Positions 19,080 to 35,772 of a stretch of 44,281 nt of DNA are shown one piece after another. The notes beneath the pieces are model-generated. The model did not search any database and was not told where the DNA came from. It was given only the letters and a program-made list of their open reading frames with translations. The stretch is from positions 1-44,281 of the forward strand of contig JAGAKF010000007.1 of NCBI GenBank assembly GCA_017625835.1, in the 5' to 3' direction. Both the position numbers and the translations under genes were made by a program. Origin of the DNA: Clostridia bacterium (GTDB taxonomy: Bacteria; Bacillota; Clostridia; Oscillospirales; Acutalibacteraceae). Positions within the stretch are counted from its first letter, which is position 1. Each line of letters starts with the position of its first letter.

Positions 19080-19121
19080 ATTATATACCTAAAAAAGATA
19101 AAGCACATTGTACTTTAGTGC
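19080..19121 (-). promoter_or_regulatory. box promoter 1 (Cys3His repeat protein-MscS)
   Basis: The minus strand carries GCACTAAAGTACAATGTGC at 19103-19121, then exactly 17 nt, then TATAAT at 19080-19085. There is no TTGACA; the box occupies about -48 to -30. The start codon follows about 50 nt downstream. Confidence 0.85.
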
Positions 19122-19134
19122 AGATTTTGCAAAA

Positions 19135-19167
19135 AAAGACCGCAAAATCAAAAATTTTGCAGTCTTT
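19135..19167 (-). terminator. terminator of DUF6935-like gene
   Basis: A 14-bp stem with one mismatch (AAAGACCGCAAAAT / ATTTTGCAGTCTTT) and a T run on the minus strand, located just before box promoter 1. Confidence 0.8.
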
Positions 19168-19195
19168 AATGTTAAAACATCACTATATTGTTTTG

Positions 19196-19813
19196 TTATG
19201 CCCACGGGTCAGCGGCGGCAGGAGTTCTGATATCTGCAAGCAGGAACTGTTCCCAGAGGAACCACTGACCTGTTGACGGCTTTGTGCGAAGCTTCACCTG
19301 ACGGGCAGAATCAGCACCGCCCGACTTGATGTGTAAGGTAATATAGCCATCACTCAAATTGTCACGACTGTACGGATTCTCAAAGAATGTAAGCGTGTAC
19401 GGTTCACTCGGCTCATAGTTGTTTTCTGGAGTTGCACCGTCAAAATATGAGCGCGGAACATAGTCCTTATCTCTGAAGCGGTCAGCGATAAACTGCTTGT
19501 CATAGGTGCTCAGCCCCTTGGGACCGTGCAGGAAATTGAGCATCTCAAAGCAAGCCTCTTTGTCCACGGGATAAATACACAACGCTGCAATAGTGAGAGC
19601 CGCCGCCTTTTCGGGTGATTTAAGGTCAGCCTCGGGCATTGACTGAAGCTGTGCAAGGTTGACAGGTAACTGCTGTAAGGTTACCTTATATGTTTTATTG
19701 CCCATACCCGAAACCGCATTCTTGGCACCCTGAACAATATTCTGCCCTGCCTGATTGGTAGCAGAGCGAGCAGCCTGAGCTGCCTGTCTTTTTAAAGTAT
19801 CGAATAATGACAT
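19196..19813 (-). CDS. DUF6935-like protein
   Basis: This 205-aa soluble protein begins with an Ala/Gln-rich amphipathic stretch (MSLFDTLKRQAAQAARSATN). A compact domain follows with PVNLAQLQSMPEADLKSPEK, LNFLHGPKGLSTYDKQFIADRF, YVPRSYFDGATPENNYEPSEPY, and the C-terminal WFLWEQFLLADIR...DPWA. From memory this matches the uncharacterised family DUF6935, whose function is unknown. AGGAGG precedes the ATG at 19813 at good spacing. It is a single-gene unit with its own box promoter and terminator, so it is coregulated with the neighbouring envelope genes. Confidence 0.75.
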   Translation of the reverse strand: MSLFDTLKRQAAQAARSATNQAGQNIVQGAKNAVSGMGNKTYKVTLQQLPVNLAQLQSMPEADLKSPEKAAALTIAALCIYPVDKEACFEMLNFLHGPKGLSTYDKQFIADRFRDKDYVPRSYFDGATPENNYEPSEPYTLTFFENPYSRDNLSDGYITLHIKSGGADSARQVKLRTKPSTGQWFLWEQFLLADIRTPAAADPWA

Positions 19814-19843
19814 AGTTAAGCCTCCTTATATTTCTGCATTCTC

Positions 19844-19885
19844 ATTATACATTTTTAATAAAATAAATACATTGTACTTTAGTGC
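19844..19885 (-). promoter_or_regulatory. box promoter 2 (DUF6935-like gene)
   Basis: The minus strand has the box at 19867-19885, differing from consensus only in its last two bases (TAT for TGC at the 3' end), then 17 nt and TATAAT at 19844-19849. A 24-nt leader with AGGAGG follows. Confidence 0.82.
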
Positions 19886-19890
19886 AAAAA

Positions 19891-19921
19891 TTAACGCGAT
19901 GCCGTTATGACACCGCGTTAA
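19891..19921 (-). terminator. terminator of the sensor kinase operon
   Basis: A stem TTAACGCG / CGCGTTAA, extendable by wobble pairs, lies immediately after the response regulator stop and is followed by a T run that merges into the upstream flank of box 2. Confidence 0.75.
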
Positions 19922-19923
19922 TA

Positions 19924-20556
19924 CTATTCATTCTTATATTCGTTTATAACAAGTCCGCATTCTCTTGCGCGGACGGCAAGCTCCGTTCTGTTTCTGAAGC
20001 CTGTTTTTTCGCGCATAGTCTGAATGTGAGCCTTGACCGTTCTCAGCGACATATGAAGCTTATCTGCAATCACCGCATCGGACTCACCGCTGATAAGTTC
20101 TCGGAGCACCTCAAGCTCCTTCGGAGAAAACTCACTGCTTTTCGCACTGCCGAGCTGAAGCGTCGGAGTGGTATCGGGATAAACAGATTCACCGTTCATC
20201 GTTCTGTCCATAACCTCGATGACCTTCTCTGCCGTCGATTCCTTATACCAGAAGCTGTCAACACCTATGCTCCTTGCCCTGTCAATAAAGCTGCATTCGG
20301 GCTGGCTTGTCATTATTATGACCTTGATGTGAGGAAAGCTTTTTTTAATTTTTGCCGCCGCATCAAGTCCGTTTGCGTTCATAGCGGTGCAGACATCCAT
20401 AAGAATAAGGTCAATCGGATTTTTAAAGCAATACATTTCAGCCATTGAAGCATTGTCAATGGTATGAGTAACCGTATATCTGTCGCTTTCTTTTACAAAT
20501 ATTTCAAGAAGCTTGCTCGCCATAGGGTCATCTTCAACTATCATTACCTTTGTCAT
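19924..20556 (-). CDS. LuxR/NarL-type response regulator
   Basis: This 210-aa protein has a receiver domain and a LuxR-type DNA-binding domain. In the receiver, D9 and D10 form the acidic pocket, D54 in LILMDV is the phosphorylation site, T83 or S84 lies in IIMTSQ, and the conserved Lys is in WYKES. The output domain (about 145-205) contains FSPKELEVLRELISGESD and the recognition helix region MSLRTVKAHIQTM. It is the last gene of a three-gene operon with two sensors; its start overlaps the kinase stop by four bases. Its operon is the only one in the 14.5-35.7 kb block without the 19-bp box, making it the natural candidate to bind that box. Confidence 0.9.
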   Translation of the reverse strand: MTKVMIVEDDPMASKLLEIFVKESDRYTVTHTIDNASMAEMYCFKNPIDLILMDVCTAMNANGLDAAAKIKKSFPHIKVIIMTSQPECSFIDRARSIGVDSFWYKESTAEKVIEVMDRTMNGESVYPDTTPTLQLGSAKSSEFSPKELEVLRELISGESDAVIADKLHMSLRTVKAHIQTMREKTGFRNRTELAVRARECGLVINEYKNE

Positions 20557-21830
20557 ATCCTGTCACCGCTTTCTTTCATAAGCTTTATCGTCAGTCTGAA
20601 TTCTGGCAAGCCCGAAACATACATCTCGCCGCCTGCATTTTCTATTTTTTGGCGCAAGGAGCCGAGACCGCCGCCTTCGGTAATTTCCTGCGTTTCAGGT
20701 ATTTTACCGTTATTTGTGAAGCAGACCACATAGCTGTCGGGCAATTCTTCGATTTCGATAATCATTTTTTGTGCATCTGCGTGCTTTACTGCATTCGTCA
20801 GAGTTTCCGTTGCCGCCGCCATAATCAGGAAGCGCGTTTCCTTGACACGGGGCATTCTGCCCTTTATCTCAATTTGTACACCGACAGATTCCGCCGACTT
20901 CATAAGTGCTGTCAGGTGGTCTGAATCCGATGACGGCTCCGCCTCCATCCGCAGAACGGCAATATTTCGTTTCCACAATGCGGCAATATCCTCAAGAGAG
21001 CCTTCCTCCTGCAGAGCGTGGTGAGTTGCAATAAGCGAACGGCCGAATTCGTTATGAATACGCACCTTTGTTTCAAGCCTCTCTTTAGAACGGGTAACCT
21101 CGTCAACATTTTCACCGTGCTTGCGCAGTCTGCTGTTCATTTTTTCAAGCTCTGCGTTCTTTTGCTCAAGAGTCTGAGTCAGCAAGAGATATTCAGTGAT
21201 ATCCGTTGCGGTAATCTGCACAACGGAATCCAGATTTTCCCTCGCAAAGCACCACACGCTTCCGTTTCTGAAGCGTATTTCGGGTTTTTCACCCGAGGTA
21301 AGACGCTCGACATCGTCATCAAGCTGACCGACACTTACAAGCTGCCAGAAGCTTTCCGCATTCTGCACATCTGAGCCCGTGAGCAGGTAGCTTAGGGTGT
21401 TCATCTGATGATTGACAAGCTGTACCATACCGTTTTTTCTTGAAAAGCAAAGTCCTGTTGGAAGATTGTCAAAGCCCTCCTTAACGGACGACGGCAGAAT
21501 TGAATTTTTTCGTTCACGGTTAAAGCTTACAGCAATCCAGCACAAAAAGGCTGTATTAACCGCAAAAACAGGAATTATCGGCAGAATATACCCCGAAAAT
21601 CCGTAATCTTCAAAATGAAGCTCGTTGACATCCGCGTTCTGCATACTCGCAAAATAGCCGAGAGACACAGACATAAACACTGTCAGCATAAGGCAGATAA
21701 GCGTTTTATACCACTCTTTTTTTCTTGCAACAAGTGTTATAAGCAAACACAGGTTCAGTGTGGTAATCAACAGCATAAACAGGAGTATTACCGAACGCAC
21801 ATAGATATTAAGGCTTAAAAAATCAATCAT
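20553..21830 (-). CDS. sensor histidine kinase (3TM-PAS, HisKA_3-like)
   Basis: This 425-aa membrane kinase has three hydrophobic segments in the first 110 residues, a PAS-like region (about 125-220), a coiled coil, the phospho-acceptor segment RIHNEFGRSL, and an ATP-binding domain with N-box TLTNAVKHADAQ and G-box GGGLGSLRQKIENAGGEM. It should phosphorylate the neighbouring response regulator. I chose the ATG at 21830 because GGGAGG lies just upstream and the overlap with the preceding gene then shrinks to 8 bp; the frame is open to an ATG at 21863. The signal sensed is unknown. Confidence 0.85.
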   Translation of the reverse strand: MIDFLSLNIYVRSVILLFMLLITTLNLCLLITLVARKKEWYKTLICLMLTVFMSVSLGYFASMQNADVNELHFEDYGFSGYILPIIPVFAVNTAFLCWIAVSFNRERKNSILPSSVKEGFDNLPTGLCFSRKNGMVQLVNHQMNTLSYLLTGSDVQNAESFWQLVSVGQLDDDVERLTSGEKPEIRFRNGSVWCFARENLDSVVQITATDITEYLLLTQTLEQKNAELEKMNSRLRKHGENVDEVTRSKERLETKVRIHNEFGRSLIATHHALQEEGSLEDIAALWKRNIAVLRMEAEPSSDSDHLTALMKSAESVGVQIEIKGRMPRVKETRFLIMAAATETLTNAVKHADAQKMIIEIEELPDSYVVCFTNNGKIPETQEITEGGGLGSLRQKIENAGGEMYVSGLPEFRLTIKLMKESGDRI

Positions 21831-23484
21831 TTGTGCCACCTCCCTTTGAGAGAATGACATCAAACACTATATCATTGTCCTGAATATCGTAGGTTATTTC
21901 GTTGTATTCAACGGCAAATTCAGGAATAGCATCTTCATTTATCTCGTTTTCGCAACCGATTTGTATGCGAAGCCTTACATCTCCGTTTTTACAGTGAAGG
22001 TGCACGAGAACGGCACTGATATTTTCAATAAACGCCTCAACGATATTTTCAAACAAGTCATAGGCAAGAACTGCAAATTCAACACTGAGCATATCGTCGC
22101 ACACGCTGTCAAGCGATATCAGAACATTGTTGAGCTCAATATTTTTAAGCGATTCGCGGAAGCAGTATTCAAGCTCCTTCGACTGAATCGACGGGTTTTC
22201 CTCGTTAAGCAAAAGCAGGTTACTTCTGCGCTTGATATAAGCACTCAGAACACATATCTGAAGAAGAGTTTCTCTTGTTTTTTCGGGATTTTCTTCGGCA
22301 AGCTGTAAGAGCTGTTCCGCCTTTTCAAGCTGTGAATAAACCTCGCTTGCGATACGGTCATACAGTCTGTTCTTTTCATCAAGGCGAACCTTGTTTTCTT
22401 TAAGCTCAAGCTCCGCTTTAAGAAGAACATTGTTTTCATTAAGATACTCCTGAGTTTCTGTCAGCTGAGCCATAAGCTGTTTTAAACGTGTCAGGTCATT
22501 CTGCCAGAGGATACGTCCTCCCGGAATTTCTTTACTGTTGAGGACAGTATTATCCTTATCAACAGGCTTTTGCTCGGCACGGCGCATTATATCCTCGGGA
22601 AAATCGTCCGCACAGGACGAAAGATAGCACACCTGATAATCCTTATCAACAATCTGAGCCGCAACCGTTGAAATTTCAAAAAGCTCGTGGTAGCCCGTAT
22701 TGGAACGGATAAGCCCGCTTTGTATTGCGCTTTCGAGCAGCACCGTAATCAACAGACAGTCGATTGCAACAAGGTCAACGCTGTTCATAATCCTTCTGTA
22801 AAAAATCCAGAAAACAACCGCAACTGTCATAATTACAATCGGCATTTTTTTGACAGAGCGTCTGCCCGGTGTACGGTTTTTGAGAAGAAGCATAATTACA
22901 AAATAAAAACCGAGAATGACAAACCAGGCACATACAATATAAAAGCCGAAATTATATCCGTAATCAAAGTTATAGTTTTTAATTCCGTTTGGAAAAACGA
23001 ATACAAGCTCGTGCAAATCATTTGTGAATATCAACACAAGCAACAACACCAAAGGGATATAAAGACGCTTCATTTTCTTTGGCAGAACATAATTTTCGGG
23101 TTTATCCACGCACTGAATTATAAAAACACCAAGAAGCGGAATTACAAGCATCGGAATATAGAAGGCATACCATATATATCTTCCGAGAGGGTCGGTATAA
23201 TGCAGAAAATCCCACTTGATAAATCTGACATTCAGCCACAGAAGCATCAGAGCTCCGACCCAAAGCAGATATTGCCGTATCTGCTTATTGAGTATTCTGT
23301 TATGTATTGATACGCACCAGACTATAAGCAGTCCCGAACGTATAACCTGTGAAACCAAGCCAAAGGACATTCTCACCCACGCTGATTGAGAAGTAAAATA
23401 CACTTCAAAAAGCAGGAAGCTTATAAACACAAGCACGCCTGCGGCAGTAAGATATAAGGTTGAGCGTTGCTGAACTCTCTGCAC
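21823..23484 (-). CDS. 7TM sensor with degenerate histidine kinase core
   Basis: This 553-aa protein has about seven to eight N-terminal membrane segments resembling the histidine kinase 7TM sensor region, then a PAS-like domain (about 270-345) and a long coiled coil. The region matching the kinase dimerisation helix reads KNRLYDRIASEVYSQLEK, with Tyr where the phospho-acceptor His would be expected. The C-terminal domain has a weak N-box-like segment (DLFENIVEAFIEN) and no clear glycine-rich box. It therefore looks like a catalytically weak or inactive sensor acting with the downstream kinase. It starts with GTG behind GGGAGGTG and heads the three-gene operon. Confidence 0.75.
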   Translation of the reverse strand: MQRVQQRSTLYLTAAGVLVFISFLLFEVYFTSQSAWVRMSFGLVSQVIRSGLLIVWCVSIHNRILNKQIRQYLLWVGALMLLWLNVRFIKWDFLHYTDPLGRYIWYAFYIPMLVIPLLGVFIIQCVDKPENYVLPKKMKRLYIPLVLLLVLIFTNDLHELVFVFPNGIKNYNFDYGYNFGFYIVCAWFVILGFYFVIMLLLKNRTPGRRSVKKMPIVIMTVAVVFWIFYRRIMNSVDLVAIDCLLITVLLESAIQSGLIRSNTGYHELFEISTVAAQIVDKDYQVCYLSSCADDFPEDIMRRAEQKPVDKDNTVLNSKEIPGGRILWQNDLTRLKQLMAQLTETQEYLNENNVLLKAELELKENKVRLDEKNRLYDRIASEVYSQLEKAEQLLQLAEENPEKTRETLLQICVLSAYIKRRSNLLLLNEENPSIQSKELEYCFRESLKNIELNNVLISLDSVCDDMLSVEFAVLAYDLFENIVEAFIENISAVLVHLHCKNGDVRLRIQIGCENEINEDAIPEFAVEYNEITYDIQDNDIVFDVILSKGGGTND

Positions 23485-23521
23485 GGTTTCACCTCCCGTT
23501 TAATATACCTGTAATAATCAT

Positions 23522-23550: not shown

Positions 23551-23561
23551 CCTTCATATAT

Positions 23562-23591: not shown

Positions 23592-23596
23592 TACAT

Positions 23597-24829
23597 TTAG
23601 AAGTTTCCGCCTGTTCCGCTGTGGGTTCTGCCTGAAGAGCTTGTGTGAGTCGAGCTGCGTGAGCCGCTGTCGCTATCATCACTGCTGTCCTTTTCCTTTG
23701 CAACCTGTTGTGTGTTTGAGTACAAAAATGAATCATACTGTGCATCCGGTTTGAGAACAAGGCTTCCGGGGCGTGCATAGTGCTGTGCATCGCGCTTGTA
23801 TACGGAATAGTTCTTGGATGTCATCTTTATTGTAACAAGCATACCTCCCACTGCACCGAAAAGAAGAAGAACAAATAACCACATCGGACTTACATTAGGA
23901 CGCATTATGTACTCCGCCTTATCAAGGTAGGCAGTGAAAGCACCGTTATAATCCTCGGCAACAAGAAGATCCTTCATTGCTGAATAAATTTCTTTTCTGT
24001 ATGTATCAACAAAATTCATCTCGCCCTTGCCGTGAGTTGTGATGTAGAGAGCACGCTCGCCGTCAGCACCGGGCTTGAAAAGAACGAGAATACCGTCGTC
24101 ATTCTTGCCGTAGCCGTAGCCGTTGTAATCATAGAAATCGTCGCCGTATTCCTCGTAGGTCTTGCCCTCTAAATCATTAACCGTAACGATTGCGATTTCC
24201 ATTTTATGCTCAGCTGTGAACGCCTCACATCTTGCAAGAAGAGCCTTTTCCTCCTCGTCAGAAAGAAGCTCTGCTCTGTCAACAACAAGAGGAAGTGTTC
24301 TTTCTACACGCTGGAATTCAGTTGTCGGCTCTGTTGCTTCAGTAGGCTTTTCCTCACCCTTTGTCGGCTGAGTCAAAGGTGCAGATTTAAGAACATTTTC
24401 CGACATTGTAAGAACAGCCTTGACACCGCCGAAATATGACTCGTTCTCGTCATAAAGTGTCATCATGTTATCCACAACGGCATCAGTGAAGATTTTTTCA
24501 GCCTGACCTGCACAGTACCACGAATAAACCTTTTCGGAAATATTGTGAGCAATTACAATTCCGTCCGGAGAATCTGTAAGAGCATCGTAGGAGGTCTCGC
24601 AGAATTCAGTAACAGACATTCCGTCAGTTTCGGAAATGATGCAGAAAACAACGGCTACACCGTAGGTGTTTTCAATCATCTGTGCCTGAGAGCTGAGCTC
24701 ACTGATTTCTGACTGTGTGAAAATATTTTCTGTATCAACGATGTAATCCTCTGTATAAGCAGCTGCAGAAACCATCATTGAAAGACAAAGTAACACTGCG
24801 AAGAATAAAGCAATTATCTTTTTAGTCAT
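23597..24829 (-). CDS. TPM-domain membrane protein (YdjH-like)
   Basis: This 410-aa exported protein has a signal peptide (about 1-25), two TPM domains (about 26-150 and 185-305), one membrane segment near 317-340 and a Ser/Gly-rich cytoplasmic tail ending GTGGNF. TPM domains occur in envelope proteins, and this layout recalls YdjH of B. subtilis, which works with the zinc-ribbon protein YdjG to hold the SPFH protein YdjI and PspA at the membrane. The second TPM domain has the typical LSDEEEKALLARCEAF and YGYGKNDDGILVLF. It is the last gene of the nine-gene operon, 14 bp after the YdjG-like gene. Confidence 0.85.
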   Translation of the reverse strand: MTKKIIALFFAVLLCLSMMVSAAAYTEDYIVDTENIFTQSEISELSSQAQMIENTYGVAVVFCIISETDGMSVTEFCETSYDALTDSPDGIVIAHNISEKVYSWYCAGQAEKIFTDAVVDNMMTLYDENESYFGGVKAVLTMSENVLKSAPLTQPTKGEEKPTEATEPTTEFQRVERTLPLVVDRAELLSDEEEKALLARCEAFTAEHKMEIAIVTVNDLEGKTYEEYGDDFYDYNGYGYGKNDDGILVLFKPGADGERALYITTHGKGEMNFVDTYRKEIYSAMKDLLVAEDYNGAFTAYLDKAEYIMRPNVSPMWLFVLLLFGAVGGMLVTIKMTSKNYSVYKRDAQHYARPGSLVLKPDAQYDSFLYSNTQQVAKEKDSSDDSDSGSRSSTHTSSSGRTHSGTGGNF

Positions 24830-24843
24830 TTTTCTGCACCTCC

Positions 24844-25917
24844 TTACAGTAACTCAATAAGCCAGAGAAGACCGTAGCCGATAAGACCTACCGCGGCACC
24901 GATAAGACCGCCCATAAGCCTTGCTTTCTTCTCGTCTGTCGGGATGTTACCGACAAACTTGCCTGTCTGACCGTTCATAGCGTATGTATAAGTCTTACCG
25001 TTCCAGGTTGTGTTTACAAGCCACACGGGAAGAAGTCCGTATCTGAAGAAGCCGTTGGTTACAGCCATATTGATATTTTTCTCACTAACCTCGTTATATC
25101 CTCTGACGGCATTTTCTTTGAACTCATCAAAAACAGCCTGACGGATTCGTTCGTTAGCTCTGACTGAGCCTTCGTCAACGCTGACATCAAATTTATCGGC
25201 AACATAGCCTGCAAGATATGCCGTATTGAAATCAACGGCCTGTGAAAGATCAAACGGCTCGATTGATTCCATAAGAGTGTCATCAATCTTTTTTGATGCA
25301 TCAGCAGGAACATTATCGAATGTAACGCTGCCTTCGCGGTAAACATCATAAGTGTCGGTCTTTATGTATTCATAATTTTTGTCTGACCAACGGGTAACTT
25401 TTTCGCCGTAGAAACTCACCTGTGAATAAGCATCGCAGGAGAAAAGCCAGTGCGGAACATAAACACCCTTGATTTCCTCAAGCTTGTTGTCATCGAGGAA
25501 GCCTTTGGGCATAAACTTTTTGCCTGAAAGGTGCTTTTTGAAGGCTTCCTTTGCGGCTTTTTTATCGAGCTTGAAGGGAATGATGAAATCAGGGCGATAC
25601 GCACCCGAGAACTGTCCCTTCATAACAACCTGATTGCCGCAGTACGGACAGCTTGTAGCACCTGTTGCAGCATCGGCAACGATTTCACCGCCGCAGGATT
25701 TACAGGAATAGACGCTGACACCGTCCAGCTCACCTGCACCCCACTGAGTTGCCTGTGAATTCCAATTTATCGGCTCTGCCGTGTTCACCTCAGCCTGAGG
25801 CATATCGGTGATTTCAAATTCTGTGTCGCAGAACGGACATTTGAGCTTCTGCACACCTACATTAAATTCGACCGCACCGCCACAGCACGGACATTTTTGT
25901 TCAGTTACTGCTGACAA
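24844..25917 (-). CDS. double zinc-ribbon membrane protein (YdjG-like)
   Basis: This 357-aa protein starts with a zinc ribbon (CPCC ... CPFC, residues 9-30) and a second one (CKSC ... CPYC, about 72-95). A conserved domain with YRPDFIIPFKLDK and IKGVYVPHWLFSCDAYSQ follows, and the C terminus is a membrane segment (GGLIGAAVGLIGYGLLWLIELL). Ribbon and membrane topology fit B. subtilis YdjG, partner of the TPM protein YdjH, which is encoded directly downstream here. Such genes are sometimes labelled as helicase or transcription-factor zinc fingers, which is misleading. It starts 2 bp after the preceding gene. Confidence 0.82.
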   Translation of the reverse strand: MSAVTEQKCPCCGGAVEFNVGVQKLKCPFCDTEFEITDMPQAEVNTAEPINWNSQATQWGAGELDGVSVYSCKSCGGEIVADAATGATSCPYCGNQVVMKGQFSGAYRPDFIIPFKLDKKAAKEAFKKHLSGKKFMPKGFLDDNKLEEIKGVYVPHWLFSCDAYSQVSFYGEKVTRWSDKNYEYIKTDTYDVYREGSVTFDNVPADASKKIDDTLMESIEPFDLSQAVDFNTAYLAGYVADKFDVSVDEGSVRANERIRQAVFDEFKENAVRGYNEVSEKNINMAVTNGFFRYGLLPVWLVNTTWNGKTYTYAMNGQTGKFVGNIPTDEKKARLMGGLIGAAVGLIGYGLLWLIELL

Positions 25918-25919
25918 GG

Positions 25920-26450
25920 TTAATCATCTCCTTGTGTATATGAATTTAAAATAGAATAAATTTCTCCGAAAATTTTATATCCCTCTCCCGGTATCTCATC
26001 AGAGCCTGAAACCGAATACATTTCACCGTCTCCGTAAGTAACGGTGAGGATTGTCTGCGGAGCATCAAGAAGCTCTAAATCACTTTTCGGAAGCTTGCCC
26101 CACGACAGAAGTCTTCGGCTGTAGCAAGCCTGCTGAATTTCAGTCAGCGCCATGGGGCCGACCTCGATTGTATAGCTTTTCTCCTCGGCACCGTTATAGG
26201 GACAGTCATAATATGACAGGTAGATTTTATTGTCTTCACCTGTGTAAACCTCTACGGAATTCGAGCCGCCATCCATACCTCCGCCCGTATAGTACCTGCA
26301 GGAGGTAATGGTGTAGCACGGGGGCCGCACCATACCGGGACCGTCGAGAATGTGTCTCTGCTTAAACCGTTCAAACATAAAAGCACCTGCTGTAACGAGT
26401 ACTGCAACCGCTGTGAAAACAGCGATTGCAATAACTATTGGTTTTTTCAT
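25920..26450 (-). CDS. membrane-anchored hypothetical protein
   Basis: This 176-aa protein has one N-terminal membrane segment (residues 4-27) and an extracytoplasmic domain of about 145 residues with four cysteines and repeated Tyr/Gly stretches (SCRYYTGGGMDGGSNSVEVY). I do not recognise a family. It is embedded in the operon, 7 bp after the DUF4428 gene and 2 bp before the YdjG-like gene, so it is likely an accessory part of the same membrane system. Confidence 0.7.
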   Translation of the reverse strand: MKKPIVIAIAVFTAVAVLVTAGAFMFERFKQRHILDGPGMVRPPCYTITSCRYYTGGGMDGGSNSVEVYTGEDNKIYLSYYDCPYNGAEEKSYTIEVGPMALTEIQQACYSRRLLSWGKLPKSDLELLDAPQTILTVTYGDGEMYSVSGSDEIPGEGYKIFGEIYSILNSYTQGDD

Positions 26451-26457
26451 TCTGTAA

Positions 26458-27477: not shown

Positions 27478-27510
27478 AATAAAATCTCCTTTATATAATT
27501 TTTAATTTAA

Positions 27511-28143
27511 TTATTTCGCATCGTTTTCGTTGAAAATGTCACCGCATTCGGGGCAGAATTTCGGAGGATTGTTCGGATCCTCGGGCTGCCAGCCACACTT
27601 GTCGCACTGATAAACGGGTGTGCTGACGGGATTTCTGCTTCCGCAATCAGGACAGAAATTACCGTTACTCACAGCACCGCAGGTGCATTTCCAGCCACCG
27701 CTCGGTGCAGGTGCCGTTGGTACGGGTGCAGGTACGGAATTCATTGCCGCCATTTTTGACAGCATTTTTTCTGTGCTTGGATCAAGCGTAATAACCATAT
27801 CGCTGATTCCCGTAAGTCTGACGCCTGCTCTGCCCTCCCAATCGGAAAAGGTGGACTCCTGCAATACCGCGCTCGCCTGAGTTTCAGTCTTATACTTCAG
27901 CTCATCGAGTGAGCATCCGCCCTCAAAAAGCTTTGTAAAAGCTCTTTCAACCGAGAGTGATGCTTCCCTTTTTAAGATATCAACGGGAAGCTGACCGCCG
28001 AACATAGTATTGAGCTTGCTTTGATCTGAAATCACATAATTGAGAGTTGCGGTAAAGCTGATTTTAGAAAGCAACGTCATACCGCCTTCAGCCACATCGG
28101 CATAAAAGTGTCCGTCAAAATGAATTCCTGTGAAAGGCTCCAT
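27511..28143 (-). CDS. short SPFH-related protein with double zinc ribbon
   Basis: This 210-aa protein looks like a shortened paralogue of the upstream SPFH gene. Its C-terminal ribbons (WKCTCGAVSNGNFCPDCGS, and CDKCGWQPEDPNNPPKFC ending CGDIF) are almost the same as those of the larger protein. Its first 130 residues resemble only the second half of an SPFH domain and lack its N-terminal part. It may form mixed complexes with the larger SPFH protein or modulate it. It sits 23 bp after that gene in the operon. Confidence 0.7.
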   Translation of the reverse strand: MEPFTGIHFDGHFYADVAEGGMTLLSKISFTATLNYVISDQSKLNTMFGGQLPVDILKREASLSVERAFTKLFEGGCSLDELKYKTETQASAVLQESTFSDWEGRAGVRLTGISDMVITLDPSTEKMLSKMAAMNSVPAPVPTAPAPSGGWKCTCGAVSNGNFCPDCGSRNPVSTPVYQCDKCGWQPEDPNNPPKFCPECGDIFNENDAK

Positions 28144-28166
28144 AGCATTTCCCTCCGTATGTTTGG

Positions 28167-29549
28167 TTATTTAATATCCGAGCCGTCGAAAATGTCACCG
28201 CATTCGGGGCAGAACTTCGGAGGATTGTGAGGATCCTCAGGCTGCCATCCGCACTTGTCACACTGATAAAGCGGTGCACCTGCCGGCTTGGGTGAGCCAC
28301 AATTCTGACAGAATTTGCCTTTATTTACTGCACCGCAGCTACATGTCCAGCCTTCTGCTTCTGCAGGCTTGGGTGAACCGCATTCAGGGCAGAATTTACC
28401 GTTTGCTGTTGCTCCGCAGGCACATTTCCAACCGCCCTGTGCAGGTGCGGATGCTGCTGCATTTGCCATTGCCTGAGCCTGAGCGTTAATCAACTGCTGA
28501 GCCTGCTGCTGTGCCATCTGCTGCTGTTGCTGCTGCATTCCTGCCTGGTACATTGCCGCGGGGTCAAATCCGCCGCCACCGGCACCCATTGCCATATTCA
28601 TTCCCATGAAGCCCATCATTGCTCCGTTTTCGTTTGCGGCAGCTGCTTCCATTGCATTCGCTCTTGCATCAGTCATTCTGCCTGCCATCATAAACGGGTT
28701 CGAGCCCATTGTTGCGGCATCTTCCATCTGATTGATTTTCTTCATATCCTCTTCTGTGAGGGTAATGGGATTGAGTGCGATTGACTCAACAGAAATACCT
28801 CTGCGCTGTGTCCATTCAATAGCCAATGCCTTGTTAAGTGCATCCTTGAGCTCTGTTGTATGTGCAGGAATCTGTGCAGGTCTGAGCTCAAGCTCTGTGA
28901 GCATTGCGAATGCAGGCTGAAGAGCTGAAATGAACTCTGTCTTGAGCTGATTGTCAATTTCTTCTCTTCTGTATTCATCACTTACGTTGCCTGCAAGCTT
29001 TGTGTAGAAAAGAAGAGGATCTGTAATTCTGTATGAATATACACCGTTACATCTTACCTGAACGGAACGGAAAAGATTGAGTCTTTTGTTTGCAACCTCA
29101 AACATAAACGGATTTGGTGTACCGAACTTGTTATCCATTATTTCCTTTGTGTTGAAATAATAAACTCTCTGATCCTTGCCTGTGTCTCCGCCGTATGTAA
29201 ATCTCTTTCCTACTGTTTTAAAGGTCTCCTTAAGAGTGTCACCGAGCTTGCCTGAGAAGATGCTCGGCTCTGTTGATGTGTCATAGGTAAATTCGCCGGG
29301 TTCTGCACAAACCTCGACAACCTTGCCCTGTTCAACGATAATCATACACTGACCGTCGGCAACAGCAATACCTGAACCGTTTGAAATTACGTTATCGTGA
29401 CCTTTTGTGTTTGATGAACGTCCGCCTACACGCTTCTGGCCTTTAACCATCAACACATCGTTTTCAAGTGAATCGCAGTAGAAAAATTCCTTCCACTGGT
29501 CAGCCATTACGCCGCCGAGTGCTCCGATTCCCGCTTTAATAAGTCCCAT
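28167..29549 (-). CDS. SPFH-domain protein with triple zinc ribbon (YdjI-like)
   Basis: This 460-aa protein has an SPFH/band-7-type domain (about 15-290; note FFYCDSLENDVLMVKGQKR and QCMIIVEQGKVVEVCAEPGEF). An Ala/Gln/Met-rich helical stretch (about 300-375) follows, then three zinc ribbons (CACGATANGKFCPECG, CSCGAVNKGKFCQNCG, CDKCGW...CPECG). This is the architecture of B. subtilis YdjI, which clusters at the membrane and recruits PspA. PspA itself is not encoded in the window. Partners YdjG-like and YdjH-like are downstream in the same operon. There is no membrane segment, so it is cytoplasmic and membrane-associated. Confidence 0.87.
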   Translation of the reverse strand: MGLIKAGIGALGGVMADQWKEFFYCDSLENDVLMVKGQKRVGGRSSNTKGHDNVISNGSGIAVADGQCMIIVEQGKVVEVCAEPGEFTYDTSTEPSIFSGKLGDTLKETFKTVGKRFTYGGDTGKDQRVYYFNTKEIMDNKFGTPNPFMFEVANKRLNLFRSVQVRCNGVYSYRITDPLLFYTKLAGNVSDEYRREEIDNQLKTEFISALQPAFAMLTELELRPAQIPAHTTELKDALNKALAIEWTQRRGISVESIALNPITLTEEDMKKINQMEDAATMGSNPFMMAGRMTDARANAMEAAAANENGAMMGFMGMNMAMGAGGGGFDPAAMYQAGMQQQQQQMAQQQAQQLINAQAQAMANAAASAPAQGGWKCACGATANGKFCPECGSPKPAEAEGWTCSCGAVNKGKFCQNCGSPKPAGAPLYQCDKCGWQPEDPHNPPKFCPECGDIFDGSDIK

Positions 29550-29587
29550 AATAAAATCTCCTTTCAGAAATCAATTTAAATTTATTT

Positions 29588-30682
29588 TCATCCCTTGGGC
29601 AAATCGTAATCAACAACATCTGTTATTGAATAGCCGAAAGGACTGCTTGCATCCGCTTTCACAATTACTGCAAGGCCTCTGTCTCTGTCAAACTCGACCT
29701 CGGGAGCTCTTTGATCGCGAATAAGGATTTTAACGGAATATGTTCCGTCCTTGTTTTTTTCAACTCCGTAAAATTCTTCGGAACAGAATTTATCAAAAAG
29801 ATGAGGCTCAACGAGATATTTTTCGCCTGTACTGAAGTGAGCTCCCACAACATGACAGTCTTCCGTAAGCTTAACCTTGCTTTCGTTCAGCGAGGGATAA
29901 AGCGTTCTGAAATAAGCATCTGCTTCCCAGTCGGAAAGACCGATCATATTTACATAATCTTCCTTGCCGTTCATTTTAAACTCGTTGAGTGTTACTGCGT
30001 AAGCAATGGTGCCCCATACAACCTCAGGCTCATGCTTGATAAGTCTGTCGTTATAAAAAACATCCGATACCGCACGGGCAACACAAAGCTGATAGAACGC
30101 AGAATCCTGAGTTATTTTGTCAGGACTAAACCTCTGTGCCAACATAAGAAGCTTCGTAACAACCTCATAACCGTCAATTACCATATAATAATCAGCGGTG
30201 AATTCTCCGCACTCCGCAACAAGTCTGAAATCGGGAATAGTTTCAGTTACATAGCATTCAAATTCATAAACCTTGTCTTTTTCCGCGGTAACTTCGAAAA
30301 GTGTGTCAACCGCTTCAAATCCGTCAACAATCGGCGACCACTCAATAGCCTCAAGTCTTACCTTCACACCGTCAACAGGAGAAACAAACTTGAAGTAACC
30401 TGCATCCGCTTCCGGATTAATACCTGTTTCTATTCGTTTCGGCTTGCTTTTAACACTCTTATAATCAGCTGAGCTTCGGTCAGCATAGAGTGTCAGCATA
30501 AGCTCGCCTTCGGAAAGCTTGTTTGCAGGCTTAGCCGGTGCCTGTTGTTCGGTTGTCGCAGTCGTAGTGGTGGTTGTAGTTGTAGTTGTTTTCTCCTCAT
30601 TATCTTTACTGCCGCAGGCGGCAAATGAAAGAACTAAAACAAAACACAAAGCAAGAGAAATAAAGCTTTTGATTTTATCCAC
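29588..30682 (-). CDS. lipoprotein with Thr-rich linker
   Basis: This 364-aa lipoprotein has a signal peptide with lipobox LSFAACG (Cys near residue 23) and a linker of ten consecutive threonines. Two extracytoplasmic regions follow. The first (about 65-165) is beta-rich, and the second contains LLMLAQRFSPDKI and GLSDWEADAYFRTLYPSLNE. I do not recognise a family. It lies between a small membrane protein and the SPFH gene, so it is probably the outward-facing component of the operon's envelope system. Confidence 0.75.
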   Translation of the reverse strand: MDKIKSFISLALCFVLVLSFAACGSKDNEEKTTTTTTTTTTATTEQQAPAKPANKLSEGELMLTLYADRSSADYKSVKSKPKRIETGINPEADAGYFKFVSPVDGVKVRLEAIEWSPIVDGFEAVDTLFEVTAEKDKVYEFECYVTETIPDFRLVAECGEFTADYYMVIDGYEVVTKLLMLAQRFSPDKITQDSAFYQLCVARAVSDVFYNDRLIKHEPEVVWGTIAYAVTLNEFKMNGKEDYVNMIGLSDWEADAYFRTLYPSLNESKVKLTEDCHVVGAHFSTGEKYLVEPHLFDKFCSEEFYGVEKNKDGTYSVKILIRDQRAPEVEFDRDRGLAVIVKADASSPFGYSITDVVDYDLPKG

Positions 30683-30694
30683 TGATATACCTCC

Positions 30695-30979
30695 TCACTT
30701 TTTATAAGGATTTTTGACAGACGAATAGGGATTTTTATTTTCCTTCGGCGGATCGGGACGGTTACCCTCTCGTATCAGCCAGGAAAAAACTGCCGTCTTT
30801 ATTCCGACACCGACAATCCACAGCGCGATTGCACCGACAAACCACAGGATTGATATATCCAGAAAGAAGTGGAGCGCAAGTGCTATCCACGCAGGAATTG
30901 TCCACTCAAGGTCGAAAACAAGATTTACACACCAGGCAACAATAAAGCCCTTGTTGCCTGTATACCTTTTCTTTTTCAT
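30695..30979 (-). CDS. small membrane protein
   Basis: This 94-aa protein has two or three hydrophobic segments (about 13-35, 38-55 and 56-72) and a Pro/Lys/Asn-rich cytoplasmic tail. No family is recognised. It starts 2 bp after the nucleotidase stop, and the next gene follows within 12 bp, so it is co-translated within the nine-gene operon. Confidence 0.65.
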   Translation of the reverse strand: MKKKRYTGNKGFIVAWCVNLVFDLEWTIPAWIALALHFFLDISILWFVGAIALWIVGVGIKTAVFSWLIREGNRPDPPKENKNPYSSVKNPYKK

Positions 30980-30981
30980 TG

Positions 30982-32448
30982 TTATCTGATAACAAGTCTG
31001 CCTGAAATCTCACGGTCAAGATTCTGATGATTTGAAAGATACTCATCAAAAATACCGCGGCAGGATGTTGAAACAACAACAGGAGTGCCATTTGCCTTGA
31101 TTTCGTCAAATGAAATGTTGAAGAAATCCTCAAGGTTGTTGTAGTGGAACTGCTGAAGTCCTACCTTATAAACCTTATTGTCATCAATCGGCTCGCCGTT
31201 GAAGTCGAATCTGATATACTCGTGAGTTGCTCTGTCATAATCAACACGGAGTCCCGTTGAAAGCTGATAGAACTCGCAATGCTCACCCTGCCATACACCG
31301 TCACGCACCATATGCTTGATCATACGCTTGAACTGTTCGCCTGTGACCTTAATCATATACGCTGCATCATCATACGGGAAGCATTCGCAAAGGTCAGAGA
31401 AAAGGACGATAGGACCGAGCTGCGTGCTTCTGACACTGCCTGAGCCGAGAAGCATAATGTCAAGTCCGAGGCTCTCGCGCATAATGTCGGAGAAAAGTCC
31501 TCCGAGTGCGGTTTCCTTTGTTCTTTCGGGGTGAGTAAGCTTTTTCTTGAAACGTGTAACAAGTCTGCCGTACTTCTCGTCTGTCTGTGATTTATAGTGT
31601 TTGAGAATCTTTTCAAGGTCCTCATCCTTCGGGCAATGCTCCTTGTTGATGGGAACACATTTCCACTTATAGCTGTCGATGCAGTTGTTGTCTGTATCAA
31701 TCTCAATGTCAAATCTACCGATCTGGTCGGTACCTGTACCTGCCTGAACAATAACAACATCGTTAACAACCGCGGGTTCTTCAATGAATGTATGTGAGTG
31801 ACCGCCGACGATAACATCAACGCCCCATGCAGGATCAAGTTGTGCGGCAAGCTTCTTATCTTCTTCAAAGCCGATGTGGGTAAGAAGAACGGTGAGGTCA
31901 ATGTCAATCGCATTATATGTATTACAGATTCTGCCGACCTCCTGAGCTGCTTCGTTGATATCAACAAAAGAACCGATAATACCGTCGTTCTTTGTCTGTG
32001 AAAGAACCTCCTCGGTGATGATACCGATAAAGAGAATCTTCATTCCGTCAACCTCAGCGATGTAGTGAGGTTTGAAAAGTCTTGCACCGTTTGTTTTGAT
32101 ATGTAAGTTAGCGTTGATAATCGGGAACTTGGCACATTTTTCAATAAAGAGAAGGTGTGCGATACCGTAGTCTGTTTCGTGGTTGCCGAGAGTAACAACA
32201 TCGGGAGCGAGCATGTTCATAATCTCAATTGTTGAAATGCCCTTGAACTCTGAGTCAATAACAGAGCCGCGGAACATATCTCCTGCGATACAGTAAAGTG
32301 TGTTCTTCTCTTCGTTTCTTACCTTGTTGACATAACCCGAAAGCATTGACACACCGCCGACAAGGTTATCGTCAACGCTTTCTGCAAGGAAGTCACCGTG
32401 CATATCGTTTGAGTGAAGAATCGTAAGTTTTTTGATGTTTTTTTCCAT
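30982..32448 (-). CDS. cytoplasmic bifunctional metallophosphatase/5'-nucleotidase, paralogue 1
   Basis: This 488-aa enzyme is of the UshA/5'-nucleotidase family, which removes phosphate from nucleotides using two metal ions. The ligand set is complete: D15 and H17 in NDMHGD, D57 in GDMFRGS, N89-H90-E91 in LGNHETDYG, LLTHIGFEED, and GGHSHTF. The C-terminal substrate-binding domain follows from about residue 310. Unlike UshA there is no signal peptide, so it should act in the cytoplasm. It is the first gene of the nine-gene operon, with AAGGAG before the ATG. It is closely similar to the next nucleotidase upstream. Confidence 0.88.
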   Translation of the reverse strand: MEKNIKKLTILHSNDMHGDFLAESVDDNLVGGVSMLSGYVNKVRNEEKNTLYCIAGDMFRGSVIDSEFKGISTIEIMNMLAPDVVTLGNHETDYGIAHLLFIEKCAKFPIINANLHIKTNGARLFKPHYIAEVDGMKILFIGIITEEVLSQTKNDGIIGSFVDINEAAQEVGRICNTYNAIDIDLTVLLTHIGFEEDKKLAAQLDPAWGVDVIVGGHSHTFIEEPAVVNDVVIVQAGTGTDQIGRFDIEIDTDNNCIDSYKWKCVPINKEHCPKDEDLEKILKHYKSQTDEKYGRLVTRFKKKLTHPERTKETALGGLFSDIMRESLGLDIMLLGSGSVRSTQLGPIVLFSDLCECFPYDDAAYMIKVTGEQFKRMIKHMVRDGVWQGEHCEFYQLSTGLRVDYDRATHEYIRFDFNGEPIDDNKVYKVGLQQFHYNNLEDFFNISFDEIKANGTPVVVSTSCRGIFDEYLSNHQNLDREISGRLVIR

Positions 32449-32501
32449 AATAAACTCCTTGAAAACCGGGCAAACAAGATATCTGCCCTATTGTTATATA
32501 C

Positions 32502-32543
32502 ATTATATTAGATCATTTTTAAAAGCACATTGTACTTTAGTGC
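32502..32543 (-). promoter_or_regulatory. box promoter 3 (nine-gene operon)
   Basis: The minus strand has the exact consensus box at 32525-32543, 17 nt, then TATAAT at 32502-32507. It drives nucleotidase 1 and, by the short gaps (38 bp at most), all genes down to the TPM protein. Confidence 0.85.
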
Positions 32544-32558
32544 AGATTTTCATAAAAA

Positions 32559-32587
32559 AGAGCCGATTTTTGTAAAAAATCGGCTCT
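32559..32587 (-). terminator. terminator of pncC-nucleotidase 2 unit
   Basis: A perfect 13-bp stem AGAGCCGATTTTT / AAAAATCGGCTCT with a 3-nt loop and a T run on the minus strand. Confidence 0.88.
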
Positions 32588-32593
32588 AATAGA

Positions 32594-34069
32594 CTATTCT
32601 TTTTTGCCTGTTATTGTTATTCTGCCGTCAAGGTCGGCATCAATATTCTGAACGGATGAAAAATATTCCTCCACGATATCCCTGACGGAGGTTGCAACCG
32701 TTCTTGTCGGATGCTTGTCCTCGATTTCGTTTATAGGCAGATTGAAATATTTTTCGAAGCTGCTGTACTGAAATTGCTGAAGACCGATTCTGTAAAGTGT
32801 ATCATCCTCAACAGCCTTGCCGTCAAAGGTAAATGAGGTAATTTCGCCCTTGGGGACATCGTAGCACACTCTTAACCTTTTTGAAATCTGAAAGAAGCCC
32901 GAGCCTCCGCCCTGCCATATCTCATCGCGAAGCATAAATTTAAGCATTGAACGAAGCTGACTGCCGCTGACTGTCAGCATCTTCACATTGCCGTCATATG
33001 GGAAGCATTCCGTAAGATTGCGATACTGAACAACGGGTCCGAGCTCCTCGCCGCGAATACTTCCCGATGCAAGGAACATCACATCAACCCCCAGCCTTTC
33101 GGCAAGAATATCGCAGAACAAATCACCAAGCTGTGTTTCGCGGTAACGGTCGGGATGAGTCAGTTTCTTCTTTAAACGGGCAACAACCCTGTTATATTTA
33201 ACATCGGTTATACTTTTGTATGACATGAGAACCTCGTCAATCGCCTCATCCCTCGGACAGTTTTCGGGGGTTATCGGTACAAGCTGCCACTTGTAATCGG
33301 CAAGGCAGTTATTATCCGTATCAACCGTAATATCAAATCTTCCGATTCCGTCCGTACCGACACCCGCCTGAACAATGGGAATGCCGTTGACGACCGCAGG
33401 ATCGTCAATGAATGTATGCGAATGGCCGCCGACTATTATATCAACACCCCACGCAGGGTCAAGCTGTGCAGCAAGCTGCTTATCCTCCTCAAAGCCGATG
33501 TGTGTAAGCAGAACGGTAAGGTCAATATCCGTCCGCCTGTAAGCGTCACAGATTCTGCCGACCTCCTGGGCCGCCTCGTGAACATCAATGAACGTGCCGA
33601 CAAGACCTTCGCTTTTCGCCTGCTTCATCACGCTCTCGGTGATAATGCCGATGAAAAGAATTTTCATACCATCAAGCTCAAAAATATGGTGCGAATTAAA
33701 CAGTCTTGCGCCGTTTGTTCTGATATGTAAATTCGCATTGATAATAGGAAACCTTGCACACTTTTCAATAAAAAGCAGATGTGCAACACCGTAATCCGTT
33801 TCGTGGTTACCGAGGGTAACAACATCGGGGGAAAGAATATTCATAATTTCGATTGTCGAAACACCCTTGAATTCGGAGTCGATAACCGAGCCGCGGAACA
33901 TATCGCCCGCGATACAGTAAAGCGTATTCTTTTCTTCATTCCTTACCTTGCTGACATAACCGGACAACATAGACACACCGCCGACGAGTTTTTCGTCCAC
34001 GTTTTCCGCAAGGAAGTCTCCGTGCATATCATTTGAATGAAGCAAGGTCAGTTTTTTATATCTGCTCAT
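32594..34069 (-). CDS. cytoplasmic bifunctional metallophosphatase/5'-nucleotidase, paralogue 2
   Basis: This 491-aa protein is a paralogue of nucleotidase 1 with the same metal motifs: NDMHGD, GDMFRGS, LGNHETDYG, LLTHIGFEED and GGHSHTF. It likewise lacks a signal peptide. The two share most of their residues across the whole length, so this is a tandem duplication followed by separation into two transcription units. It begins 3 bp after the pncC stop and shares box promoter 4. Pairing with PncC suggests pyridine or other damaged nucleotides as substrates, but that is only context. Confidence 0.88.
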   Translation of the reverse strand: MSRYKKLTLLHSNDMHGDFLAENVDEKLVGGVSMLSGYVSKVRNEEKNTLYCIAGDMFRGSVIDSEFKGVSTIEIMNILSPDVVTLGNHETDYGVAHLLFIEKCARFPIINANLHIRTNGARLFNSHHIFELDGMKILFIGIITESVMKQAKSEGLVGTFIDVHEAAQEVGRICDAYRRTDIDLTVLLTHIGFEEDKQLAAQLDPAWGVDIIVGGHSHTFIDDPAVVNGIPIVQAGVGTDGIGRFDITVDTDNNCLADYKWQLVPITPENCPRDEAIDEVLMSYKSITDVKYNRVVARLKKKLTHPDRYRETQLGDLFCDILAERLGVDVMFLASGSIRGEELGPVVQYRNLTECFPYDGNVKMLTVSGSQLRSMLKFMLRDEIWQGGGSGFFQISKRLRVCYDVPKGEITSFTFDGKAVEDDTLYRIGLQQFQYSSFEKYFNLPINEIEDKHPTRTVATSVRDIVEEYFSSVQNIDADLDGRITITGKKE

Positions 34070-34072
34070 AAT

Positions 34073-34582
34073 TTACTCCGCAATCAATTTAAAAAGCTCG
34101 TCTGCTATCTCTTGTGCAACAGCGATTTTATACTCAAATCTTGACGGCTGCGGCTCAAGCTCAAGATAGAAATCAAGAGTTTTGTCTTTTGTGCTCAGCG
34201 CAAACCAGACCTGACCGGGAATTGATGCCGCCGCGTTTGCAGGGTCAACATTTCCCATTGAGCCCGTCACACCCACACCGATGTCAGCGTTGTATGTTTT
34301 GCGGCAGGCTTCAGCCATAGCGCAGGCGGTTTCCTTTGAATAAACCGAATATTTATCTATTGTTTCTTCGGGAACACCCTGCTTGATTTTTGCCTCGTTT
34401 GAATATGTTACAAATGCACCCTTCATAATGCCCGATGCACCCTCGGTGTCGCTGATTAAAGATGCGAGTTGACCCGAGGTACAGCTTTCCATTGTTGTGA
34501 TTGAAATATTTTTTTCGATAAGCATAAGCGTCAGACGACGGTAATCGTCACGCACTTTCTTTTCGCTGTATGTTCTTTGCAT
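34073..34582 (-). CDS. pncC: PncC/CinA C-terminal family nicotinamide-nucleotide amidase
   Basis: This 169-aa protein is the stand-alone CinA C-terminal domain, which deamidates nicotinamide mononucleotide to nicotinate mononucleotide in NAD recycling. The signature TTMESCTSGQLASLISDTEG gives the catalytic Ser/Thr and Lys-region context, and VGVTGSMGNVDPAN is the conserved glycine-rich loop. The length fits PncC. It is the first gene after box promoter 4 and is followed at once by nucleotidase 2. NMN deamidase activity is known for the family and not shown here. Confidence 0.85.
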   Translation of the reverse strand: MQRTYSEKKVRDDYRRLTLMLIEKNISITTMESCTSGQLASLISDTEGASGIMKGAFVTYSNEAKIKQGVPEETIDKYSVYSKETACAMAEACRKTYNADIGVGVTGSMGNVDPANAAASIPGQVWFALSTKDKTLDFYLELEPQPSRFEYKIAVAQEIADELFKLIAE

Positions 34583-34611
34583 ATAACCGCCTCCGATAAT
34601 TATTCAATTGT

Positions 34612-34653
34612 ATTATAACATTATATTTAGCCCTGCACATTGTACTTTAGTGC
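34612..34653 (-). promoter_or_regulatory. box promoter 4 (pncC-nucleotidase 2)
   Basis: The minus strand has the exact consensus box at 34635-34653, 17 nt, then TATAAT at 34612-34617, about 30 nt before the pncC start. Confidence 0.85.
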
Positions 34654-34667
34654 TAAAATTCAAAAAA

Positions 34668-34689
34668 GCGGCGGTATTTCTACCGCCAC
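34668..34689 (-). terminator. terminator of DUF5067-like lipoprotein gene
   Basis: A GGCGGTA / TACCGCC stem with a 4-nt loop, extended by flanking pairs, and a T run on the minus strand. Confidence 0.8.
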
Positions 34690-34711
34690 TGAATTATAAA
34701 ATTATGTAATT

Positions 34712-35674
34712 TTATTTTACGGGAATCTGAATTGCCGCACCTGTTGTGTCACCTTTTCCGTAGATGTCATAGATTTCAAATTCAACTGTTGATGTTGAAG
34801 TAAGTTCATAAACTACTGAAGCTCTTACAGTTGCACCTGCATCTACTGAAGAAGTGTAGTTGCCGTCTTCGGGAATATAGTTTCCTGCACCTGATTCAAG
34901 AAGCTCAATACCATCCTGATATGCACTGATTTCAGCAAGTCTGTTGATATACAGGCTGTCGTCATTATTGTTTGTTACATCAAAGTAAACACGAATAAGC
35001 TTTTCGCCGTTGTCACCATCAACAAATTCAGATGTGATGTTAGAAATTTCACCCATACCGTCTCTGAATGTTGCTGTTGTCGGCCAACCCTTATTCCACT
35101 GCGGATCTGCAACTGTCTTAACCTTAAGGGCCTCTTTCGGAGCACCTGCAAGCTTTGCAAGGTCGATATCATAGCTCAGAATGTCAACAGGATTGGATGT
35201 AGCATTTCTGCCGACTAACTTATAGTTAACAGTGCCTGTTGTTTCTGTAAGTTTAAATTCTCTTACGAAACGGATTGTGTGACCGGGACGAACTCTGCTG
35301 TTGTAATGTTCAGCTTCTTTGAGCTCAACTTCATAAGGAGCACGAGCCATATCAAGTTCTTCACCGTTCTGTGTTACGATTTCTTCCGCTAAAACGTCAT
35401 GTGCTGTTGTTGTGTAATCAGCTGTTTTGTTTTCGAAGTCGATGTAAAGACGGAGTGCTTTTTCACCGTTTTCATCATCAAAAAGTTCTGTGCCCATAAT
35501 TCTGTACTCATAGTCGCCGGCTTTGTTTGTAAGCTGACCTTTAGCTAATGCCTGAATTTCAGGTGCCTTTGTTGTGGTTTCGCCACCGTCAGGTGTTTCG
35601 CCGCCGTCCTTACCGCAGGCAGCAAGCGCAAAAACCATTACCAATGCAAGCATCAATGCCAATAATCTTTTCAT
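34712..35674 (-). CDS. DUF5067-like lipoprotein
   Basis: This 320-aa lipoprotein has lipobox FALAACG (Cys20) and a short linker. Two similar beta-sandwich regions follow (about 45-165 and 180-315), each with a GEK-L-x-Y-DF/VTN strand and a closing V-x-PG/AGATV-x-x-x-x-Y-LT segment. These recall DUF5067-type immunoglobulin-like domains found in Gram-positive lipoproteins, here from memory. The function is unknown. It is a single-gene unit under box promoter 5. Confidence 0.78.
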   Translation of the reverse strand: MKRLLALMLALVMVFALAACGKDGGETPDGGETTTKAPEIQALAKGQLTNKAGDYEYRIMGTELFDDENGEKALRLYIDFENKTADYTTTAHDVLAEEIVTQNGEELDMARAPYEVELKEAEHYNSRVRPGHTIRFVREFKLTETTGTVNYKLVGRNATSNPVDILSYDIDLAKLAGAPKEALKVKTVADPQWNKGWPTTATFRDGMGEISNITSEFVDGDNGEKLIRVYFDVTNNNDDSLYINRLAEISAYQDGIELLESGAGNYIPEDGNYTSSVDAGATVRASVVYELTSTSTVEFEIYDIYGKGDTTGAAIQIPVK

Positions 35675-35730
35675 AATAGTACTCTCCTTTTGTTTTGAGA
35701 ATTTATGTATATTTGCTATACATCAATTGT

Positions 35731-35772
35731 ATTATATAACCTTTTTCTGCGTTGCACATTGTACTTTAGTGC
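35731..35772 (-). promoter_or_regulatory. box promoter 5 (DUF5067-like lipoprotein)
   Basis: The minus strand has the exact consensus box at 35754-35772, 17 nt, then TATAAT at 35731-35736, with the start codon about 60 nt downstream. Confidence 0.85.

Follow-up and report, generated by a model that had tools for sequence, protein, structure and literature searches.

Response regulators of the NarL family commonly recognize two 7-bp half-sites with 2 bp between them, and activators of the LuxR family are often centred near -42. The closest described counterparts of the system reported here are regulators of the VraR/LiaR/CesR/DesR type. The motif of pneumococcal VraR, an inverted repeat of 16 bp, is located 31–34 nt before the start, and the DesR operator is ATGACA-N2-TGTCAT (PMC11034029). 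Streptococcus mutans LiaR requires an A-rich stretch beside its repeat (PMC4447274). In the window analyzed here (44,281 nt, contig JAGAKF010000007.1 of assembly GCA_017625835.1, from a gut-type Clostridia bacterium of the family Acutalibacteraceae), a 19-bp box precedes five promoters of one gene cluster, which also encodes a response regulator of this build. We propose, with a probability of roughly 0.78, that a VraR/LiaR/DesR-like regulator would activate, in class-II fashion, an envelope regulon confined to this single cluster (SPFH, TPM, and zinc-ribbon proteins, 5'-nucleotidases, and secreted proteins), with a seven-transmembrane (7TM) pseudokinase and a histidine kinase as its putative sensors. 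No earlier description of this system was found among the open-license papers listed by the literature searches.

With up to three mismatches allowed, the window holds exactly five copies of the box, always on the minus strand (19103, 19867, 32525, 34635, and 35754). Four copies are exact and the one at 19867 carries two changes, as the initial annotation had reported; 0.01 matches were expected in a shuffled window, and none of 100 shuffles reached five. Equally borne out at all five sites were its statements that the box ends exactly 17 nt before a perfect TATAAT, that the 17-nt spacers differ in sequence among the promoters, and that TTGACA is not found at the -35 position. A scan of the genome of origin, which the annotation had suggested, yielded no further copy at up to three mismatches in the assembly (2,087,655 bases, 77% complete), so that random genome-wide scatter was not seen and the box stands solely in the cluster, in agreement with the local regulon the annotation described. 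Upstream of four of the five boxes lies a terminator-like stem of the preceding unit (two from the terminator scan, two by eye).

The 19-mer breaks down into a 14-bp imperfect palindrome, TGCACTAAAGTACA, whose centre lies at -42.5, and a separate hexamer, ATGTGC. The symmetric element, TGCAC-TAAA-GTACA, begins one base ahead of the box and ends at its position 13, and four of its five arm pairs match, or three of five at the 34635 site, whose first base is A. With TATAAT taken as -12 to -7, the hexamer covers -35 to -30 and the palindrome -49 to -36, which, if transcription starts at the predicted position 7 nt after TATAAT, places this repeat where pneumococcal VraR has its own. The A/T-rich flank visible beside the palindromes likewise recalls the A-rich stretch described for S. 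mutans LiaR. The division of the box follows from two genomes of another genus (G092 and G202), whose promoters carry CCTAC-N4-GTAGG centred 30.5 nt upstream of the initial T of the -10, the identical distance at which TGCAC-TAAA-GTACA is centred in the window. A symmetric 19-mer around GTAC was rejected because the palindrome of these relatives stops before ATGTGC; the GCAC...GTGC symmetry of the initial annotation was thus wrong, the true symmetric part being shorter and shifted. Its view of the box as an activator site replacing the -35 element holds for the class-II position and the lack of TTGACA and fails for ATGTGC, which belongs to the -35 region and not to the palindrome.

All five promoters are read on the minus strand. 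Promoter 5 (35731–35773; palindrome 35760–35773, ATGTGC 35754–35759, TATAAT 35731–35736) serves the gene of a DUF5067 protein (34712–35674). Promoter 4 (34612–34654; palindrome 34641–34654 with the outer pair lost, ATGTGC 34635–34640, TATAAT 34612–34617) serves a CinA-like gene (34073–34582) and a 5'-nucleotidase gene (32594–34069). A 5'-nucleotidase gene (30982–32448) and the long unit behind it follow promoter 3 (32502–32544; palindrome 32531–32544, ATGTGC 32525–32530, TATAAT 32502–32507). Promoter 2 (19844–19886; palindrome 19873–19886, TATAAT 19844–19849), in which the hexamer is ATGTAT (19867–19872), serves a DUF6935 gene (19196–19813), and promoter 1 (19080–19122; palindrome 19109–19122, ATGTGC 19103–19108, TATAAT 19080–19085) serves the gene of a 1174-aa repeat protein (15500–19024).

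The predicted binder of the palindrome is the response regulator encoded at 19924–20556 on the minus strand, the LuxR-type protein already singled out in the initial annotation. It combines a receiver (PF00072, 5.5e-15) with a GerE/LuxR-type helix-turn-helix domain (PF00196, 9.6e-14), both above cut-off, and its nearest solved structures in the PDB are VraR (4.2e-27) and DesR (7.1e-24), followed by NarL; no LiaR equivalog was present among the 25 of 68 NCBIfam rows listed. Upstream on the same strand lie the genes of two kinase-like proteins. HKb (20553–21863) is a histidine kinase in which visual inspection of the alignment showed the phospho-acceptor His, N-box, and G-box in all 31 rows; its NCBIfam match to a UhpB-like C-terminus (5.3e-8) falls below cut-off. 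HKa (21823–23484) is a membrane protein with a weak 7TM sensor match (HisKA_7TM, 2.1e-5, 24.9 bits, below the cut-off of 28.6). His and N-box were lacking in 30 of 30 HKa rows inspected by eye (one short row dropped, some rows ending early), and HKa may be a sensor pseudokinase that controls HKb. Unlike LiaFSR and VraTSR, the cluster offers no match to a LiaF-like accessory membrane protein among the 20 window proteins scanned against Pfam (1e-3); HKa occupies that place.

Box and regulator travel together. Among 18 genomes of the genus, several of them incomplete, box-N17-TATAAT (up to three mismatches) was found in four, and these are the four with a close regulator orthologue (70–100% identity), a coincidence of 1 in 3060 by hand calculation if the two were independent; a fifth genome (G002) has a homologue of 39% identity at the threshold used (E ≤ 1e-20). 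Across the family, 23 of 200 genomes encode a regulator homologue at E ≤ 1e-40, and in the relatives' regions examined the regulator gene comes after HKa- and HKb-like genes. Both G092 and G202 keep much of the cluster (SPFH, DUF4428, zinc-ribbon, and TPM genes, joined in G092 by 5'-nucleotidase and DUF6935 genes). Three copies of the CCTAC operator-N23-TATAAT at zero to one mismatch are present in each, confined to the contig that bears the cluster; reversing the pattern as a control gave two and one matches, respectively. A further genome (G148) had no site in the strict scan, and a looser pattern gave one (TGCACTATAGTACG, 30 before TAAAAT).

The same geometry recurs beside homologous regulators of other genera, where the palindrome arms differ (CCTAC, CAGCC, CRCTA, GTGCC) and the distance to the -10 is unchanged. 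This was seen in the best 80 of at least 487 contig loci encoding a regulator relative, by their titles mostly Clostridia assembled from metagenomes, often of ruminant gut, alongside some Bacilli and Erysipelotrichaceae. Palindromes that have 4 or 5 matching arm pairs and are followed by xTG prefer one distance, 30, at which 33 loci contained 48 of them, as against a mean of ~10.5 sites in ~9 loci at the 25 distances outside 29–31. TGYAC arms go with recognition helices S[LV]RTVK, CCTAC with SQYTVR, CAGCC/CATCC with SV[AP]TVK or SLATVK, CRCTA or TACTA with S[VA]WTVR, and GTGCC with APGTVK, SPGTIK, or SAGTVK; CATCA (L114), CACCC (L035), and CAATC (L037) are single-locus types. With each palindrome counted once, a -10 stood at 29–31 for 32/35 TGYAC-type, 10/10 CCTAC-type, and 18/23 CAGCC-type sites, the last without L085, whose helix SVARVK belongs with another group and whose five matches have no -10. 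Counted strand-wise, which halves the rates since palindromes mostly match on both strands, the share of matches that have a -10 was, for loci whose helix fits the arm type versus other loci, 26/46 vs 5/24 (TGYAC), 10/19 vs 0/3 (CCTAC), 18/41 vs 0/25 (CAGCC), 3/8 vs 0/4 (CRCTA), 1/1 vs 0/17 (CATCA), and 3/7 vs 0/18 (GTGCC). These counts are descriptive, as the same data served to define the arm classes. The scans behind the arm types and the strand-wise counts did not include L058 and L066, whose genomes are present via other loci. Four of the five TGYAC exceptions lie in L050 and L054, from genomes with this regulator on another contig, and one in L086.

Several results weigh against the proposed regulator–operator link or narrow it. 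The xTG filter was picked after a first site listing had been inspected; without it, perfect palindromes numbered 18 at distance 30 and 18 at 35, and counting by lineage gave a slight excess (17 at 30, 16 at 31, 15 at 36). The distance signal therefore rests on palindrome and TG jointly, and on the class counts. Under fixed rules taking one site per lineage, a site near the regulator gene was found in 29 of 76 regulator lineages and none in 47, so that many homologues are left unexplained. Arm distance correlated with helix distance (r 0.36) less than with receiver-domain distance (r 0.46), and the partial correlation of arm and helix was 0.18, equalled or exceeded by 91 of 5000 permutations; co-variation of arm and helix beyond kinship is accordingly weak and suggestive only. 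The distant regulator of G002 is not accompanied by a box, no operator site was found in G020, and in G092 three of the four matches to a CCTAC pattern with two mismatches lie on other contigs.

The hexamer deserves separate attention. In the 80 loci, ATGTGC showed the largest excess of any hexamer at N17-TATAAT with one mismatch allowed (25 seen vs 2.35 expected), and TTGACA was seen 29 times vs 3.28 expected. At least 4 of 5 arm pairs stood immediately upstream of 17 of the 25 ATGTGC instances, several of which are near-duplicates within the genus; by lineage (85% regulator identity), ATGTGC occurred in 11 of 76, eight of them with such a palindrome. A palindrome is combined with ATGTAA in four lineages, with ATGTTT in three, and with TTGACA in one, and outside the genus the promoters beside regulator homologues often have an ATGT-like hexamer. 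CCTAC-type promoters mostly lack ATGTGC, with TTGACT, GTGACT, TGGATG, and others instead, and GTGCC-type promoters mostly lack it too. ATGTGC-N17-TATAAT was rejected as a general promoter element: its four matches in the genome of origin all fall in the cluster, and the reversed control also matches in several genomes. Any match was present in 58 of 200 family genomes, mostly one or two each; one genome (G033) also has four, on four contigs. We regard a non-TTGACA -35 hexamer common to diverging operators as the newest aspect of the system. Tentatively, and with the odds against it, ATGT(GC) could be a -35 element peculiar to this class of promoter and recognized by sigma factor and docked regulator together; the operator would then be a module open to exchange, whose arms have been rewritten in six or more ways together with the regulator, with the geometry toward RNA polymerase and, in most types, the hexamer frozen.

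In the activation we propose, a membrane or envelope signal would lead the sensor pair of HKa (as 7TM pseudokinase) and HKb to phosphorylate the regulator. The palindrome TGCAC-N4-GTACA would be its operator, and the bound dimer would sit beside the weak ATGTGC at -35 and hold the housekeeping sigma factor there, so that the five promoters of one envelope cluster would fire together. The regulator gene probably stands at the end of the longest unit, which would provide positive feedback. A weak -35 with a perfect -10 is expected of activator-dependent promoters. The same regulator might instead repress, its dimer covering the -35 region and excluding RNA polymerase until a signal arrives. The site does abut the -35 position, and repression is known for a related regulator, S. 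mutans LiaR acting on hrcA (PMC4447274). We nevertheless judge repression unlikely here, as the hexamer is poor beside TTGACA while the -10 is perfect, and as repression would not need the fixed distance to the -10.

It is also quite improbable that a different DNA-binding protein reads the palindrome, with regulator and box merely co-inherited in the cluster. Their presence could each simply mark the cluster, and the fit of arm type to overall regulator kinship is no worse than its fit to the helix; yet sites occur beside regulator homologues in otherwise different surroundings, often directly before the regulator gene, and position and repeat layout fit VraR-type operators. We disfavor, as having very little chance of being correct, the idea that an alternative sigma factor recognizes ATGTGC and TATAAT, with the palindrome as an accessory. 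The excess of ATGTGC at N17-TATAAT and the sigma-factor fragments encoded in the window could be read this way, but the fragments correspond to C-terminal halves of SigG, the -10 has the housekeeping consensus sequence, the combination is limited to the cluster in its own genome, and CCTAC-type promoters mostly do without the hexamer. Activation by the VraR/LiaR/DesR-like regulator is our preferred account.

How many genes the five promoters control depends on operon ends: the initial annotation's figure of about 14 becomes 14 or 15 by the open reading frame (ORF) list, rising to 18 if both kinase-like genes and the regulator belong to the unit from 32448 and if the channel gene 14559–15479 follows 15500–19024. 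The long unit behind promoter 3 (23597–32448, minus strand) encodes a 5'-nucleotidase, 94-aa and 364-aa proteins, an SPFH/band-7 protein with zinc ribbon (PF13421, 9.9e-22), zinc-ribbon proteins at 27511–28143 and 24844–25917 (the matches of the latter below cut-off), a DUF4428 protein, a 176-aa protein, and a TPM-domain protein (PF04536, 1e-37). The HKa, HKb, and regulator genes come after it on the same strand, and the terminator scan listed no minus-strand terminator-like site between the TPM gene and HKa. Promoters 4 and 5 lead units spanning 32594–35674 (minus strand) with the DUF5067 protein, the CinA-like protein, and the second 5'-nucleotidase; those behind promoters 1 and 2 span 15500–19813 (minus strand), and their 1174-aa repeat protein matched no Pfam family above cut-off. 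Large proteins with Cys-containing repeats flank the cluster on either side (15500–19024, 37359–39476, and 39492–43802). The first ORF behind a site could be read by a simple rule at 64 of 65 sites. In the relatives these ORFs encode members of the families seen in the window, very large proteins that begin with a signal-like stretch, and a protein of 127–140 aa, and in CAGCC-type loci the operator often lies immediately upstream of the regulator gene itself. At eight sites (L022 715, L023 1289, L070 6662, L071 9275, L078 2584, L083 5834, L090 3843, and L096 3444) the operator precedes the 127–140-aa protein, by eye a degenerate stand-alone receiver, which is possibly a feedback part of the system. 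Elsewhere in the window, the C-terminal half of SigG (about residues 89–252) is present in two copies (13241–14308 and 36227–37294, 84.6% identical over 1068 bp); in each, the place of the N-terminal half is taken by a divergent 192-aa ORF that belongs to no known family. Near full-length SigG occurs in 9 of the 18 congeneric genomes (one with an inner stop), and none of that grade was found in the 77% complete assembly itself. By eye, ORFs within 5–4415 resemble genes for a mobilization protein/relaxase, a ParB-like protein, and a serine recombinase, and would mark the integration of a mobile element close to a sigma fragment.

The closest described gene arrangement is pspA-ydjGHI of Bacillus subtilis, which is controlled by sigma-W, is led by pspA, and encodes an SPFH protein with zinc ribbon together with TPM-domain and zinc-ribbon proteins (PMC8581546, PMC11237479). 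The present cluster likewise unites SPFH, TPM, and zinc-ribbon proteins in one unit. It differs from that arrangement in that a Pfam scan of 20 window proteins gave no match to PspA and in that a two-component system is encoded nearby. Compared with the VraR/LiaR/CesR/DesR type, the build of the regulator is shared, and the working principle is known. Distinct are the operator letters (TGYAC-N4-GTRCA and others), the sensor pair of two kinase-like proteins, one without kinase motifs, the regulon of a single cluster, and the conserved ATGT hexamer at -35, a non-TTGACA element whose conservation is seen in these activator-type promoters but nowhere else in the genome of origin. Relatives that keep the geometry and change the operator letters may help toward understanding how such regulators choose DNA, and these natural regulator/operator pairs at one fixed geometry make the DNA-recognition rules of NarL-type helices testable. 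The analysis also puts forward a candidate regulator, and with it an envelope-stress logic, for an uncharacterized membrane cluster that is conserved in Clostridia.

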